Position numbers and translations under genes: made by a program
Assembly (NCBI RefSeq): GCF_000002985.6
Contig: NC_003282.8
Span: 7,750,001 to 7,814,000 of the forward strand
Origin: Caenorhabditis elegans
Lineage: Eukaryota > Nematoda > Chromadorea > Rhabditida > Rhabditidae
DNA: 64,000 bases
Direction: 5' to 3'
In this document: in pieces, positions 1-9,627 of the stretch
Position numbering within the stretch: the first letter of the stretch is position 1
How the letters are laid out: each line of letters begins with the position of its first letter
Notes under the pieces: model-generated
What the model was told of the DNA's origin: nothing
The model's database searches: none
Seen by the model: the letters and a program-made list of their open reading frames with translations, nothing else

Positions 1-3000
1 CTTCGTTGCCGATTCTGCAGAACTGAACGACAATCTCGTTCTTGATTTCCTTGAGGTAATGCTTCTTTATTAAAGCCTAAATCAGTGAAATTCAACTTTC
101 CATCACTGAACAATCTTAATTTGTTTGCTTCACACTGAGTCGATCCATAAATTGTTGAAGCATCAAGGAATGATGTCAATTGATTCAATTGATTACGGAA
201 ACCAAGTGATACTTGTGCTAAAAGACTTCTTGCAAATGGCATACATCTTGGACGTCCATCACTATGTTTTGAAGGGAAGAATGGATCATTTGCTTCGATT
301 TTAATAGGGAAGCAGTGAATTGAAAGTGTTTGAGCTGAATCACACGATGAACAATTAAGAATTGTATTCTTTGGTCCACGAGAAATTGGAGAATGCATCA
401 TATCATGATCAAGAATTTGGCCAAATTGCATAAGCATATGAGTAAACTTTACATGGAATTTTGGAGCATCACTATGCACAATATTTGAGATTTTTCGAGC
501 AGATGGAAGTTCAGATCCAAGTACAGAGCGAGTTCTTGGAGTATCAAAACCATCATCATAGGCTGGATCCAGAAGACGTCTCATTTGTGTGAAAGCGTTT
601 CCAAACTTTGGATTTTTCAAATTGTTACACCATCCAGAATATGTGCGATACTTTGAAGTGTGATCACAAGGCAGTGGTTCAGGGAGGCATTGCTCTTTTG
701 GAAGAGGATCTCGTGCTGAAGTTTGGTTATTGATAAATTTAAAAAATGCTACATATGACGTTTGGACTGCCATTTTGTGATATTTTTGGTATACATTTTT
801 TCCGATTGAAATAAAATCAACAAATGTTTTGTTTTCTTTGGTCTATTATTTTTAAAGATAGCTGTGATACTGGAAAAATGAAACCCACCTAAAAATGGAG
901 TGAAGTTCCCAATAACACTTCCAACATCAATTTGTGGCAGAATTTTCTGAAGTGTCCCTATGTCTAGATCTGGTAATCTTTCATCCTTATCTAGCCCATT
1001 TCCAGATATTAAAATATTTGTAGCTTCTCTAAGAACAGAAGCTGTTCTTGCAATATCGATTGATTCTTTTTTTGGAGCCATTAGAAGAGCATGAGACAAA
1101 AGTGCAGATGGTGAAGAATCAGATAATTGTGCACTTATTCTTCTACCTTCACCCTCTTCATAACGTTGCCATTGTCTTAGACCAAGACGAATAACTTTTT
1201 CAACAGTTTCTTTTGTAATTGGGAGGCTGGTAAGCTTCTCTTCGTCTTTAAATGCTTTTGGATCAAATACTTGAATAATGCCAGTAGAGTTGCAGCTCAA
1301 TGGGCAATTTCTGAAATTAATCAGTTAAGTAGACTTCTGGATATAGACTAAATTCTGAAACAGGACAATTTAATATAAAACATTATCATACCCATAATCA
1401 TCTGGCAAAGAGAAAGCGTGATGTTGTACATGAGTCACTGTATCGGTATTATCACAGATGATTCTGGCCATAGTTGTCTTTCTAATCTCATCTATTTGAT
1501 CCACAGTGAAGGCTGATGGAGATACAAAGTTTTCATACCAGAACCGATCCCCTCGTTTAGTTTGAGCCATTTGATGTGCGAAAAGACAGGCAAATGTTGG
1601 TCCCAGAAGCGATCCTTTTGTTGGTTGCTCGGAGAGTCCACCAACAAAAACATCAATATCTTCTGGAGATTCATAGAGACGTTCAAAGTCAGAAATGTTA
1701 ACAGATGGTTTGAACTGAAATATTATACTTGTTGCTTTTAGCTGTCATATTGTTGCTTACAATTGTTTGGAGAGCCAGGAAAGAACTGAAATCGTCGAGT
1801 TTGCAGAATGTTCTCCATTGCAAATAGCTCGGTAATCCATGATCTCTTCCCATTTGAATAACCATTGCAATTATATCTACTGAATCCGCAATGTCTTCTA
1901 AAAAATTTGAGCTTTCGATTTTCAAAAAAAAAATGTTTCAAAGAATTTTGAAATAGTAAATTTAATACAATTATTAGAATAAATCTTGTAAATTCTTATT
2001 TTTTTAAAACTAACTCACTTTTTTGAAAAGCAGTTCTCAATAATGGAGAACTATGAAGTCCTGGTTTTTCAATTGGAGCATTCAACAAAAATTTCAACAT
2101 TCCGTCGATTCGTCCTTTTTCATAAATAAGAGCCGGATCGTTGAAATGCTGAAAATATATCAGAATCATGTCACTCCACAATTTACGTTTCCCTACCTTC
2201 AGAAGAGACTCGCTTTTTGTCGAAAATCGTTTATCTTCAATGTTAAATTGACTTGGCAGAAGAGTCAAGAAAAACTGTCCGGCGGCCGAAGCAAACACAT
2301 TTGAAGCCGACGAATCAATGTTCTTTAAATTATTTTATGCTAGAAGTAAATGATTTTAAACTTACAATATCATAACCAGAATCATATCCATTTTTTTGCA
2401 ATTTAATTCCCATTACTCTCAACTGTTCTTTTCCTACCAAAACAGGTACCATTTCACTGGAAAAAATCAAAAACATTTTGAAATTGAATTAGAATCAACA
2501 AACTTGAAAGTAATGTGTTGAAACTGTGCAATTGTGATTCTCCGTGCCTCTTCAAATACTTTTTGATCATCCCAATGTGGATTTACTGATGCAAGTTTAT
2601 CAGCAATTACATTATGTTGTCGCATCCAAATTGTATAAATTGCACCAGAAGTTGGAAGAAAGTTTATTCTGAAGTAATGAAGAATTATATTATAACTTAT
2701 AATTTCTTACTTGTTATTTCCAGCCAATAAACACGGTTTCCCAGTGCTTGATCTACAAATTGAACTATCCAAGTTTGCTGGAGGCACTCCCAATTGATTG
2801 TTGAATCCGCCGACAGCTCGAAGTGCAAGTTTTCCATTTTTATGTAATCTCATCTTTTTAACAATTCCCTCTGTACTTCCATAAATTTGGCTGAGATCCA
2901 AATAAGAAGTTACCATATTTGCTTGCTGTCGCTGGCCAAATGAGCATTTCGGATTTGGAACAGGAAGAGAACGGGAGTATGGAAGACATTTCACATTTTC

Positions 3001-6000
3001 TGAAAGTTTGAAGTTAAGTCATGTAGTTTCAAATTTCAGTTTTACTTGATTGAAGAGTATCATCTTCGGGTACTGGAATTTCAAAGCATTCGGGATGGGA
3101 ATTGTCTCCTCTACAACATGGAAGAGGCATCGCCTTGTCATTTCCGTAAAAGTCGCCTGAAATGGTAAATATTTATTTATTTTTTTTAATTTCAGCTCGT
3201 ATTTCCAGAAAAAAAACAATTGTTATCAAAAATTTTCCTAGCTTTTTTTTCACATTTGACTTTCTCTACTACTAAAGGTACCTCAATAGTGTGAAGTGAA
3301 CAGGCTACCGTTTCAATAAGATATTACATCTTTTGAAGATACATAGACACTACGCAGTGACGGCATTTGCGCGGACGAGGTAGCGGAACGGATGAAAGTA
3401 TATAAGTATGGCAAAACGCGCACGTCTTCGACTGATTCTTCTTGCCAAATTGGTGTCTTTGTAAGTGGCTTCACCTTTTTCTTCTTCTTTTATTTCAACT
3501 ATTTTTGTTCGTTACAGGAAGATGTCTGACGAAAAAGAAAAAAGATCATTGAGGCCTGTTGCCTTTGTGGCTGTGGTGTTCTCAACTGTTGCCATTACAT
3601 CATGCCTTATCACTTTTCCATTAATTTTGCATTATATTCAAACTTTGGAATCTCAAGTTCAACTTGATCTTGAATTCTGCCAGGCTAGAGCTAGAGATAT
3701 GTGGAAAGAAATGTTGGATATTGAAACTGGAGGAAAGAAGGATTCAGCAAAATTGGCTAACATTGTTCTCAATCATAGAAGACTCGAGAAACGGTAAGTA
3801 CATTGACAATAAAATTAGAATCCTGAGCTTGTGTGCATTAATTAGTTAACATTTTCAAGATTAAAGAAACACTATTCAGACATTTCTTATCTGAGTATTT
3901 CAGTGACACTCTCCAAGACTTCTGGGCTCGCCGCCTTCACGACCAAGAACTCCGTGACCAACCGGTTGGATACGATAATCCATCTGTTGGAGTTGAATCA
4001 TTCAACTCCGAAGGTGGAGGGTGCTGCACTTGTCATCGTGGACCACCAGGACCAGCTGGAGATGGTGGACGTGATGGAGCCGATGGAGTGGATGGAACAC
4101 CGGGAGAGATTGGACCTCCAGGACCCCCAGCTCCACCAGGACCAGATCCACACTCACTCTTCCCACCACAATGTCCATGTGAGGCTCCACCAGGTGACGG
4201 TGGACCACCAGGACAACCAGGACCAGATGGACCACCAGGAGCCCCAGGAAATGCCGGAGAGGACGGGAAACCAGGAGATCAAGGACCACGTGGACCACCA
4301 GGAATTCCAGGAGCTCCAGGACAACCAGGACGTCCAGGACCACCAGGAGAGCCAGGAACCTACAAGACTGAAGTTGGACCAGCTGGAAGAGCCGGAGCTC
4401 CAGGAAGACCAGGACCACCAGGACAACCAGGACCAGCTGGACCACCAGGAGAAAATGGAAAGGGAGGTGGCCAAGGACCATCAGGGCTCCCAGGACCACC
4501 AGGGCAACCAGGACAAAATGGAGCACCAGGAGAAGTTGGACAACCAGGAGACAACGGAGCTCCAGGAAGTTGCGATCATTGTCCACCAGCTCGTTTGGCT
4601 CCAGGATATTAGATTCTTTTTTCTTTTTTACAATAAAATATTTTATGACTCAAAATTTCGTGTTTGTATCGAAAATCTGTAGGATAATTTTGATTTGTAT
4701 ACTTACGTTTGAAAATTCGATTGCTTGGAACATGAACAATATCATCATAAATAAATGATAAAAATGGAGCAATCAAAAGTGAACACGTGGCATGTCCAGA
4801 TGGCGATGGTGTAAAAAGAGCTGATAGAGCTCGAGAAGAAGGAAGAGGTTGACCAGATTTACTTGAACGAGGGGCAGATATTCCTGTAAATAATTTAGCT
4901 TATTTCAGATATGGTTAGATGTTTACATAGATTTGTGATTTTACGCTTTTATTGTAATCTACCATAGTGTTCAAATATATTTTTATTTTTGCATGAGTAC
5001 TAACTGATATTTATGGAAGCTTGGTCAAAAATATAATTTAACGTAAATACCGTAATCCAAAATATCTCACCATCGGAATAATCAGCGGGGAGAAACCGTT
5101 TCAATCGTTCGTAGGAAGCTCCATTCAATGGATTTTTCACGTTATTGCAATGTCCAGTATACGATCTGCAGTTTCTTTGTCGTCAGAGTTTCTTGTCAAA
5201 TAAAAATTTAAAAAATCTCAAAACTATATTTAAAAAAACGGACACGCAGTTTTTTTGATGGGCGACTTCCAAAGTGTGGCAAAATGTGATTAATTTTGAA
5301 AAATAAGCTTTCTATGGTTATAGACAGACTTCATGTGGTAATTTTGTATTACACAAATTAATTGCAAAGTTCAGGCAATGAATACACCAGGATGATCTAT
5401 CAAAACTCAAAAATGCATAACATTTTACCTATACTTTCCAATAACACATTCTTCGATCTGATTCACCGGACAAATTTCTTTCATTTTTGTATTTTCTGTT
5501 GGCAAGAACTGAATCATACTTTTCAAGGTTTTTGGAGATTTTCTGAAATTTAAATTGTCATATGAGAATGCGACTCCGTTCAAACTCGGAAATCATTTGT
5601 GAAGCAAGAGTCGAAGATATTGCAGAAAATGATAAATATTTTGCATATTGATCCGCGTATGTGTAATGAAGCCATGCAAGCTCTGATTGTTTGAATGAGT
5701 CTGAAATTTAAATATTTTTAATTTCGGATACTATGTCACAACATTTTTAGGGACCCCTTTATTTTCAAATTTCAGTTATTCCAGAGAAATAATAATTAAA
5801 TATAAAGTTGAATTTTAAGTTCGAACAGCCAATTTCCTAACTTACCATCAAATTTGTCGCTCATCAGCTTTTCAGTGTCATTGAACAATTTTTCAGTTAA
5901 ACGAACTGCTGAAGATGCTGCCGTTGTTATAATTTCCTGTTTCATCGATTTTTTAAATTCATTTTTCACTTTTTCACTGGGTTCCGAGTCGAAATGTTTT

Positions 6001-7336
6001 CCAAACTCTACTCCAAACTCTTTGTTGAATTGTTTATTCGGTGAATCTGAAAGTTATTTTCCTTTAATATTTAGACAACACAGACATATTTCATTAGAGA
6101 TAACAATCATTATATGTATATGTGACGCTATTCGCATAAAAAATCTCGTTTTGATTGATTGATGAAAGATTGAAAGAAGATGTCTAATGGGAACTCAGAT
6201 TTTTGAATTTTTGAATTCTGAAAATTACAAATGTTTGACTGCCACGTCAGAGTAGTATGTTTTTTTTTATCTCCCGAAATTTCTGTACATTTACATTTAC
6301 GCTGGGAAAAGTGACGTCACGTGTATTGGAACATAAACTTAGAAAGTGTTCTGAAGCTCTGACTATTCGTGTTACCGTAACCAAGGCTAAAAAACTGAAA
6401 ATTGGAGAACGCCTGTGTGAATCTATAATTCGACCTTGTGTAAATTTACCCAAATCGCGTACTACACGTGGATTCTCGAGAAGTGTGTATTTATTTTTTC
6501 TTGATAGGAATTTACAGTTTTAGCTCAAACTCTTGATTTCGAATCCATTTTGCGAATTGTTTCCATATTTAGCATCCAAATCATCAATTTTTTACAATTT
6601 TCTACAGATAAAATTTAGATAAAATTCAATGTAACTACCATTAGAAAATACTCGAAACAACTTGAAACTAAAGTTTTTCGATATTTACCGAATTGGCGAT
6701 TAAAGAAAAAATATGTGTTAAATACAAAACAAATCGGTGTAAATAGTTCAAATATTAGCCGAAAATTTCCAAAAATTTCTCCTTCAAAACTAAATCACCT
6801 CGTGAAAATAGCTCACTAATTGTAAAATTAAAATTAGTTCACTTTCAGCGTTCCATTCAAACCTTGTAGTAACAGAAAGGAACGTTCAAAAAACTAGAAG
6901 CTCTGAAGGAGAAACGAAAAATGGCCAATATGGGCGGGGCCTAATTCCAAATTCTAAATAATTCCTTCTCTTGATCGAACTCATTCACTTCTGAAAATCA
7001 ATATAACAGGATTTTTATTGTTTATTTTGTTCAACACAAGTTTTGAATAAACTAACAAAAATATACTGAAATAGGCTCCGCCCATTTCTTGGCTTCAATG
7101 GGTTCTCGCATCGATTTTTCTTGTTAATGGACCTAATTTGAATCAATTTCAAATATGTCGAAAGCTTTCTCAATGTGGAAAAAACAATATCATTGTCAAA
7201 AAAATCAGCATAACTTACGGATCAAACTGGAAAATGCTCTTTTCTGAGTACACGGTACGAAGCTTGGACCACATGGAAACGGGCTCGCTGAGCACGTGGA
7301 AAATAGAATAAGAAGGAATAAAAGGCGTTTTCTCAT
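1..7336 (-). CDS. Secreted two-domain animal heme peroxidase (3' end beyond the window)
   Basis: About 16 exons and roughly 1,100 visible residues. Exon 1 (7219-7336) encodes a clear signal peptide ([18 protein letters not shown]). It joins in phase to exons near 5847-6046, 5590-5701, 5410-5530, 5080-5165, 4710-4886, 3047-3158 and onward to 1-717. Domain 1 (residues ~190-735) has the peroxidase fold signatures [32 protein letters not shown], the proximal-His segment [12 protein letters not shown] and RGDRFWYEN. Its distal site is lost: the position of GQxxDHD reads SFIYDDI, and the catalytic Arg region reads GNNKINF. Domain 2 starts near residue 880 and keeps the distal motif ([15 protein letters not shown]); its proximal His lies beyond the window. 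Secreted nematode peroxidases of this type crosslink cuticle or extracellular matrix; that role is inferred here. The collagen gene col-14 lies antisense in the 3159-4709 intron. I believe this is C46A5.4, from memory. Confidence 0.88.
3399..3406 (+). promoter_or_regulatory. TATA box of the nested collagen gene
   Basis: TATATAAG lies about 120 bp before the collagen ATG and about 30 bp upstream of a pyrimidine-rich start region near 3430-3445. A 5'UTR intron (about 3461 to 3517, GTAAGT...TTACAG) separates this leader from the ATG. A strong TATA is typical of cuticle collagen genes. The promoter sits entirely inside an intron of the oppositely oriented peroxidase gene. Confidence 0.65.
3522..4612 (+). 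CDS. col-14: Cuticle collagen, nested in a peroxidase intron
   Basis: Two coding exons (3522-3793 and 3904-4612), about 325 residues. The N-terminal part has a membrane-anchor segment ([20 protein letters not shown]) and the nematode cuticle collagen N-terminal domain. A subtilisin-type site (HRRLEKR) spans the splice junction. Cysteine clusters (CCTC and CPC) flank Gly-X-Y blocks: a short one, then two longer ones separated by the GTYKTEV interruption, ending [13 protein letters not shown]. Such collagens are secreted by the hypodermis, trimerise, and are crosslinked in the cuticle. The start is chosen at MSDEKEKRS just after the 5'UTR intron; an in-frame upstream ATG lies in that intron. 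The symbol is recalled from C46A5.3. Confidence 0.93.
4632..4637 (+). terminator. Poly(A) signal of the collagen gene
   Basis: AATAAA lies 20 bp after the collagen stop codon, a usual distance for a nematode polyadenylation signal. It is only about 70 bp before the antisense peroxidase exon at 4710, so the collagen 3' end is tightly confined to the intron. Confidence 0.7.
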
Positions 7337-7664
7337 CTCCTTTTTTTAAGGAGAAATGAATGATGCTGGGCTTCGCGCTTATAACAATTATAATAAAGAT
7401 GATGCTTCGAGATTTGGACCGGTCTTGTTGAATTGTCCATCTCATAAGCTTATGCATACGATTACGTCATTTGTGATTAATGAGACATGTGAGAAAAATC
7501 AGATATTTTTTTAAAATAAACATTTAATCTGGGCAATTTTTGAAAAATAGTACATGATAGATAAACTAAAAGTTTTAAAAAGGTAACGGGAGCATGAAAA
7601 ATTCCAAAATTCTAGAACTGATAAAATACAAATGATGATAAAAACACTATTCATCAGATTATAA

Positions 7665-9627
7665 TCAATTGCTATATCTCTGTTGATTATCTAAAAACAT
7701 CACTCGATTAGCAAGAATTGTGTAGAAATGGTTGATCTGGGTTGCAGCATACGCCTTGAAGCTTTCATCATGTTCTTTGTATTCTAACGATTTCCGGTTG
7801 ACACTGAAAATGTTTTTTATTTTTTATATAGTACTTTTTGTGTTTTTCTTTTTCCGAATAACTATGCAAAATTCATGAAAATTCGGTAGAAATGAGTTTG
7901 AAATTACAGTACACTTTAAAGGCGCATACATTTTCCTGATTATCAAAAATTTGCCGTGTCGAGACCGGGTACCGTACTTTTGGTCCAGTCGGGGCCCAAA
8001 GTTAAAAAATGGTTGATGTTTTGAGAAAAATCGGAACATCGACACCCTTCATCTGTGTAATGAACTTATTTGTGGCCATTCCGATTTTATTAGCTAGTGC
8101 TTCTCGAGCACTAAAATAATGAATCAAAATCATTTTTCAGCAGAAACTTACTTAATTTGCATTTTACACAGCAGATCAATCAAGTCGTAAATTATCTCAG
8201 GAATCTCGATAATCGAAAGTAAAAGTTTGAAAATATTCTTTGTCTGGATCCAAGGTACATGAGTTGGAGACATCCACTTCGGAGTTGACAAATATTTTCC
8301 AAATACTTGTTCTAATAACCTCGAGAGATCACCTCCAACAGTCTGAAATGGACAAAACGATTAGTACATTTAAATTATTCATAAACTTACTATCACTCCA
8401 GTACGTAGAGCCACATCATAAGCCTTGTAAAGACTGACTATGAATCCAAGCATAAGTTGATGCGTTTCCTCAGTTCTAGGCTGAAAATGCCGAGTTATAA
8501 ATATCTAATTACTGAATAAATTTCTTCGAAAAATATACCCTGGCAGCCAGCATTGTGTTTTTCAAAGCGGAACATCCATTAACAAGAAAAATTTGAAACT
8601 TTGACTTCTCAAGGGATTTCGTATCAGAAATAAAGCTGAAAATAAGAATTGGGGTAAAAAATTAGATTTTATGAATCATACTTGAGAAATTCACACGAAG
8701 ATAAATGGAGATCCTCCCATACAGAAATATTACGCTTCCCGTTTTTGGTTTTTGCGTTTCCAACCAAACGGAAACATCGGAGAAGAGCTTGAGAAGCCTG
8801 AAAATATTGGATAAATCAATCAATAAAATACGCTTGGAGTACGGTAGCTATGATAATTTCCATTTGGAGCTATTTAGTTCGAAATTTCTAAAGGGTGCAA
8901 AATGCATTTTTGTTCCCACTTGGATTGGGAAAAAGGGACAAAAAAATGACAAAAATGCACTTGGATAACCTCTAAATAATATTTGAAAAATCACAAAATT
9001 TGAAGATGGAGATTAAAAAAATTCCCATACTGTGAATTTACTAAAAGGGAAATGAAGAGAATCAATTCAAGATCTACATAAACAGAGAAATTTGGAACAA
9101 TTGAATTTCAGTATCCCCAATAATTTATATTTTCAGCTGGCATTTCGTATGGTTAAAAATATATAATTTCATTATATTTGTGAAGGAAACCGAGTTCCCT
9201 AAACATTTATCTTTATTTTCACCTCTTCGATCTCGTTCCGTTGTTTACGAGTTTTCGCAGCTTGAATTGCATGCTTCTTCCGTTCTTTTGTTTTTTTAAT
9301 TTTCTGTCGTTTACTTTCTTCTTTCTTTTTCATGGCAGTTTCTTGTCTTTCTATTTCTAGAACAGCTAGTCTCATTGAACATCTTCTTGGCTGAAGAAAA
9401 TGATCATTCGAAAAATTCGGAGTTACGACATCTGCATCAATTTCTTCAGGTTCCTCATCGATTATCATTTGTTGAGTTTCAGATAGTTTGATATTAATCG
9501 GACTACTAAAATCCTCATCTACGGAAATCCGATCGTCAATATCACTATTTTTCTGGCGGACAACTTCAAGAGAAAACGCTAAGACACCGCAGTGGAACCA
9601 GTCCTCATCATCGGTAATTTCGATCAT
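7665..9627 (-). CDS. Unrecognised protein with acidic/basic N-terminus and helical C-terminal domain
   Basis: ATG at 9627 follows TTTTTAG directly, suggesting a trans-splice site. Exon 1 (~9210-9627) encodes about 140 residues: an acidic stretch (ITDDEDW, IDEEPEEIDAD), then a very basic coiled stretch (KKKEESKRQKIKKTKERKK). A GTGAAA donor in phase 0 leads to exons near 8797-8668, 8638-8540, 8482-8393, 8343-8150 and 8113-8041, which give a hydrophobic helical domain (for example TKNIFKLLLSIIEIPEIIYD). The last exon (7665-7808) ends with NQQRYSN, but its phase does not join cleanly to the previous exon, so the 3' end is uncertain. I recognise no family. A nuclear location is a guess from the basic region. 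A dispersed repeat lies in the last intron. Confidence 0.6.
7900..7983. repeat. Single copy of a dispersed TCTCG repeat
   Basis: The block reads TTACAGTACACTTTAAAGGCGCA followed about 35 bp later by GTGTCGAGACCGGGTACCGTA. The same two-part pattern forms both arms of the inverted repeat at 20125-20441. It lies in an intron of the leftward gene. Confidence 0.7.

Follow-up and report, generated by a model that had tools for sequence, protein, structure and literature searches.

Gene structure at the locus

The stretch of Caenorhabditis elegans DNA analysed here (64,000 nucleotides of contig NC_003282.8, hereafter the window) carries at its left edge a minus-strand gene for a protein with two animal heme peroxidase domains. 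The gene runs from position 7336 to base 1 in 16 visible exons, and its 3' end lies beyond the window edge. The model was built from the genomic sequence, using splice sites and the open frame. All 15 placed junctions were GT-AG and kept the frame, yielding a stop-free protein of 1109 residues. The first ~18 residues, judged by eye, resembled a signal peptide. Pfam found a single family in this protein, PF03098 (animal heme peroxidase), in two stretches (E 5.4e-226 for the whole protein). The first stretch, domain 1, matched the full length of the profile and thus belongs to this homology family. It also matched lactoperoxidase (LPO) over residues 13-566 of 586 (phmmer, E 9e-76). Within the window, the gene did not have the layout of a dual oxidase, as a second PF03098 stretch and not an NADPH oxidase comes after domain 1. 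The coordinates are collected in Table 1.

The ~170 residues separating the putative signal peptide from domain 1 (exons SIG to C, 5429-7336, minus strand) had no Pfam match at E 0.001. Across 1-5433 on the same strand, domain 1 was spread over many exons, and the portion of domain 2 that is visible, about a third of it, lay in the single exon O.

Table 1. Features of the peroxidase gene and of other genes in the window
Feature	Position	Strand	Details
Exons of the two-domain peroxidase gene	7336-7219, 6046-5846, 5700-5586, 5542-5429, 5165-5071, 4883-4707, 3156-3046, 2999-2711	-
Further exons of the same gene	2668-2504, 2456-2366, 2322-2197, 2148-2019, 1897-1761, 1714-1392, 1310-889, 715-1	-
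Domain 1	1412..5433 including introns	-	Residues 182-724 match PF03098 profile positions 1-530 of 530 (full length)
Exon E, distal motif lost	4707..4883	-	Gln to Ser 4758-4756, Asp to Tyr 4749-4747, His to Asp 4746-4744; calcium Asp kept 4743-4741
Calcium loop T-x-Y-x-D-x-S, kept in domain 1	2890..2910	-	MAFFT alignment
RxxE lost	2659..2712	-	Arg to Lys (codon split 2712/2668), Glu to Phe 2661-2659; phmmer and MAFFT alignment
His of RQHN, kept	2614..2616	-	Aligns with LPO H273, not a heme ligand (MAFFT)
Proximal RxGH lost	2266..2277	-	Arg to Gln 2277-2275, ligand His to Leu511 2268-2266; phmmer and MAFFT alignment
Asn partner of proximal His lost	1851..1862	-	Asn to Val590 1862-1860, Arg to Met 1853-1851; phmmer and MAFFT alignment
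Start of domain 2, cut by window edge	1..715 (exon O)	-	GQILDHD intact: Gln 419-417, Asp 410-408, His 407-405, Asp 404-402
Amiloride-sensitive sodium channel family fragment, PF00858	11744-12430	+	Pfam match
HCF-type kelch, PF13854	22830-23915	-	Pfam match
Sec10, PF07393	31140-32261	-	Pfam match
Kinesin, PF00225	47142-48371	+	Pfam match

Loss of the heme site in domain 1

The roles of the heme-site Gln, two acids, distal His, Arg, proximal His and Asn have been described (PMC4420034, PMC3533774). All seven of these textbook residues were replaced in domain 1, namely Q105S, D108Y, H109D, R255K, E258F, H351L and N437V in LPO numbering. Two further Arg residues, replaced as R348Q and R440M, brought the count to none kept of nine. 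We take LPO Arg348 and Arg440 to be heme-site residues as well; the result holds without both (0/7). The domain 1 sequence read LSFIYDD in place of the distal GQxxDHD motif and KINF in place of the catalytic Arg and ester Glu (RxxE), and Leu511 and Val590 stood at the positions of the proximal His and its Asn partner. Five of the nine replacements were Tyr, Phe, Leu, Val or Met. As references we used LPO and the best 80 of at least 542 confirmed bacterial matches, and each of the nine positions carried the standard residue in LPO and in all 80 bacterial rows. The two scan patterns for these references were the distal motif and the calcium loop, derived from an alignment holding both window domains, so the invariance in these two stretches is partly due to selection.

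The residue pairings agreed between phmmer, which used LPO alone, and MAFFT, which used LPO and the 80 bacterial relatives. phmmer paired the LPO segment MQWGQIVDHDLDFAP with the distal stretch of domain 1, and LPO AGDSRASE with AGNNKINF. The GNNKINF stretch is split between exons G and H. The initial annotation had proposed that domain 1 lost its distal Gln, Asp and His to Ser, Tyr and Asp, and its catalytic Arg and heme-linked Glu at GNNKINF. The codons and both alignments bore this out, with Lys and Phe at the latter two positions. The exon carrying the degenerate distal motif, placed earlier at 4710-4886, was confirmed in the splice model, with its boundaries revised to 4883-4707.

A retained proximal His, in the motif RQHN, had also been claimed. 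This assignment was rejected on LPO numbering, on the XGHSXI motif within which PMC10579435 places the proximal residue, and on the numbering given in PMC3533774. The RQHN His falls at LPO 273, 18 residues past the catalytic Arg position. The true ligand is LPO His351, which lies in R-F-G-H 96 residues after Arg255 and corresponds to Leu511. In the numbering of PMC3533774 (Arg 239, proximal His 336, Asn partner 421), the ligand is ~97 residues after the Arg. In C. elegans HPX-2, Arg372 and the later active-site His476 are 104 residues apart; PMC6368334 calls His476 distal and gives the name proximal to the earlier active-site His. The same spacing of 104 separates Lys240 from Leu344 in domain 1 numbering, where Leu344 is protein Leu511. 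With the proximal ligand gone, the main argument for heme binding in domain 1 is gone too. An enrichment test that counted RQHN as the proximal His (1/7 kept vs 52/81 at 95% identity, Fisher 0.015; 0/6 vs 22/36 at 100%, Fisher 0.007) was dropped.

Domain 1 might still bind heme weakly through another residue and serve an altered redox or heme-sensing role. It contains 15 His residues, and PMC6368334 reports that human DUOX1 and DUOX2 bind heme weakly and non-covalently in the absence of the usual covalent residues. However, both active-site His residues, the Asn partner, the catalytic Arg and both ester acids were replaced. Around the position of the lost ligand there was no His, the first one downstream being 24 residues away, and the structure of the DUOX1 domain described in PMC7794343 had no heme density. 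On this evidence, we regard a weakly heme-binding domain 1 as improbable.

Conservation outside the heme site

We compared the heme site with the other conserved columns of the alignment. A column was called conserved when LPO agreed with at least 76 of the 80 relatives, or in a stricter variant with 80 of 80, and six plasmid loci (L001-L006) were left out of these counts. Domain 1 kept 0/7 heme-site positions vs 47/71 other conserved columns (Fisher 0.001), and 0/9 vs 47/69 when the two extra Arg residues were included (Fisher 0.0001). With the 80-of-80 columns, the counts were 0/7 vs 21/32 (Fisher 0.002). The contrast weakened and persisted when the stretches used for selecting the references were excluded. 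It was then 0/4 vs 42/64 (Fisher 0.018), or 0/6 vs 42/62 with the two Arg residues (Fisher 0.002). The corresponding values at 80-of-80 identity were 0/4 vs 17/27 (Fisher 0.032) and 0/6 vs 17/25 (Fisher 0.004).

The calcium site was among the features that remained. Domain 1 had D, T, Y, D and S at LPO 110, 184, 186, 188 and 190, and Tyr for Phe at LPO 186 also occurred in 14 of the 80 relatives. Cys was retained at seven of the 13 LPO cysteine positions.

Domain 1 might instead be a decaying domain under relaxed constraint, with no function of its own; in favour of this, 22 of the 69 non-heme conserved columns had changed. Yet the frame is open across the domain 1 exons, the Pfam match is full-length, and the losses cluster at the heme site, with the calcium-site positions kept. 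We consider such decay unlikely.

Search for other exons and relatives

An alternative exon restoring the DHD motif had been named in the initial annotation as a finding that would overturn the loss. We searched bases 1-9000 for it, covering open reading frames (ORFs) of at least 15 residues and motifs unsplit by an intron, and none was found. In six frames of this region, the sole DHD or Qxx[DE]H[DE] was that of domain 2. A family hidden Markov model that included both domains matched ten ORFs with an E-value of 1 or less, and each of them overlapped the modelled exons. When the motif region of domain 2 was compared with the whole window by tblastn, it matched itself (E 6e-38) and otherwise nothing better than E 0.98.

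These results bear on whether the apparent loss could be an artefact of a wrong gene model or an assembly error, the true transcript using other exons with an intact heme site. The model does rest on genomic sequence, and the intron at 5585-5543, upstream of the heme site, is only 43 bases long with a weak donor, GTTTGA. Against this stand the distribution of the nine changes over five exons (E, G, H, J and L), the single DHD of bases 1-9000, which belongs to domain 2, and the overlap of all ten matched ORFs of at least 15 residues with modelled exons. An artefact of this kind is thus very improbable.

Among bacterial, archaeal and viral contigs, no close relative of domain 1 was confirmed. 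In plasmid records, domain 1 had 22 distant matches and the visible domain 2 sequence had none.

The visible part of domain 2

As far as the window shows it, domain 2 matched myeloperoxidase (E 3.1e-25) and LPO (E 6.6e-24). It had the distal motif as GQILDHD and the calcium loop residues T, F, D and S. In the columns visible in both domains, domain 2 kept 20 of 22 conserved positions and domain 1 kept 15 of 22. The last domain 2 residues that align to the Asn and Arg columns are an artefact of the cut end and were excluded from the retention counts. The earlier statement that the second domain keeps its catalytic residues stands for the distal Gln, Asp and His, to which the calcium site can be added. 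This is the extent of the evidence from the window, as RxxE, the proximal His and the Asn lie past base 1.

Comparison with known peroxidases

Pseudo-peroxidase domains are already established, and the salmon louse protein LsPxtl-1 (peroxinectin-like 1) is a described case of two peroxidase domains of which the first is degenerate. According to PMC10579435, only the second of the two domains of LsPxtl-1 carries the classical GQxxDHD and RxxE, and calcium sites are reported in both. Its first domain, with GGxxAHD and RxxH, keeps the distal His and Arg, whereas domain 1 of the worm protein has neither and also has no proximal His. The same source notes that databases disagree over which of its domains binds heme.

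The closest mechanistic parallel to domain 1 is the DUOX1 peroxidase homology domain. In the account of PMC7794343, the ligand His is missing from this domain, heme density is absent and two cation sites are kept, and mutants of the cation sites fail to assemble with DUOXA1. The DUOX domains resemble domain 1 in having the fold without the proximal His, in keeping cation sites and in lying N-terminal to the catalytic part (PMC7794343, PMC4420034). Unlike the DUOX domain, which is fused to an NADPH oxidase, the worm domain 1 precedes another peroxidase domain.

Insect double peroxidases (DBLPX) also have two peroxidase domains per protein; their N-terminal transmembrane segment was not seen in the worm protein, and they are described with a C-terminal VWC domain as well (PMC11673278). 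Human PXDNL (peroxidasin-like) is inactive, with its Gln and ester Asp changed, but it has a single peroxidase domain plus other matrix domains and, as described in PMC8533639, no active peroxidase in cis. The C. elegans proteins HPX-2, BLI-3 and MLT-7 are nematode peroxidases of cuticle and defence, all reported to be without covalent heme residues (PMC6368334, PMC6411640). HPX-2 differs from domain 1 in keeping the two active-site His residues and the Arg (PMC6368334). Sources differ on the BLI-3 domain, which is inactive according to PMC6411640 and crosslinks collagen according to PMC6368334; the former proposes that the inactive domain docks MLT-7. Two-domain forms are also reported from bacteria (PMC3396595). 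Among the openly licensed papers listed by the literature searches, none dealt with this gene or with a nematode peroxidase of two domains whose first is dead, which is weak evidence of absence. Mosquito double peroxidases are said to have a degenerate first domain.

Proposed role of domain 1

Taken together, the sequence features suggest that domain 1 is probably a pseudo-peroxidase domain, secreted and folded, which does not bind heme or peroxide in the normal manner. The initial annotation had proposed a pseudo-peroxidase domain, kept for folding, heme binding or substrate recognition, beside an apparently active one. The pairing is supported for domain 1 and for as much of the N-terminal part of domain 2 as the window shows. 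As for what domain 1 is kept for, a folding role fits better than heme binding, because its calcium site and about two-thirds of the other conserved columns remain. Heme binding by domain 1 seems unlikely from its sequence, the proximal His, the Asn and both ester acids being gone. A heme-free, calcium-stabilised fold like that of the DUOX1 peroxidase homology domain fits better.

The heme cavity of domain 1 may be closed or filled, because five of the nine replacements are the Tyr, Phe, Leu, Val and Met residues listed above, and calcium may hold the fold. Domain 1 could then act as a rigid partner of a catalytic domain 2. It might pack against domain 2, form a dimer, or attach the protein to a substrate or to a source of hydrogen peroxide. 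The chemistry would be done by domain 2, since its distal motif and calcium site are intact.

Three points weigh against this proposal. Heme uptake is reported to be essential for the maturation of myeloperoxidase (PMC8533639), and a heme-free domain might fail quality control. The loss is focused rather than exclusive, as the changed columns outside the heme site indicate. Selection on domain 1 is read from one sequence. The first point also gives the protein its wider interest. Given the reported need for heme in myeloperoxidase, a domain of full length whose heme site has been erased, beside one whose distal motif is intact, would, if the proposal is true, be a natural test of the fold without heme. 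Such proteins should also not be annotated as two active peroxidases.

A more speculative possibility, to which we give only a small chance, is that the emptied cavity now receives another ligand or a protein partner and that domain 1 regulates domain 2 in cis, in its activity, its secretion or its targeting to the cuticle. The protein would then be an intramolecular pseudoenzyme-enzyme pair among matrix peroxidases.

Neighbouring genes

A cuticle collagen gene (PF01484 and PF01391, 326 aa) lies on the plus strand at 3522-4612, with exons at 3522-3793 and 3904-4612. It sits antisense inside the 1550-base intron of the peroxidase gene between exons E and F. The nesting is suggestive of a link, because peroxidases of the same family crosslink worm cuticle collagen, and it is perhaps due to chance. 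The gene order recalls C. elegans chromosome IV near C46A5 and C33H5, where the peroxidase is presumably C46A5.4 and the nested collagen C46A5.3.

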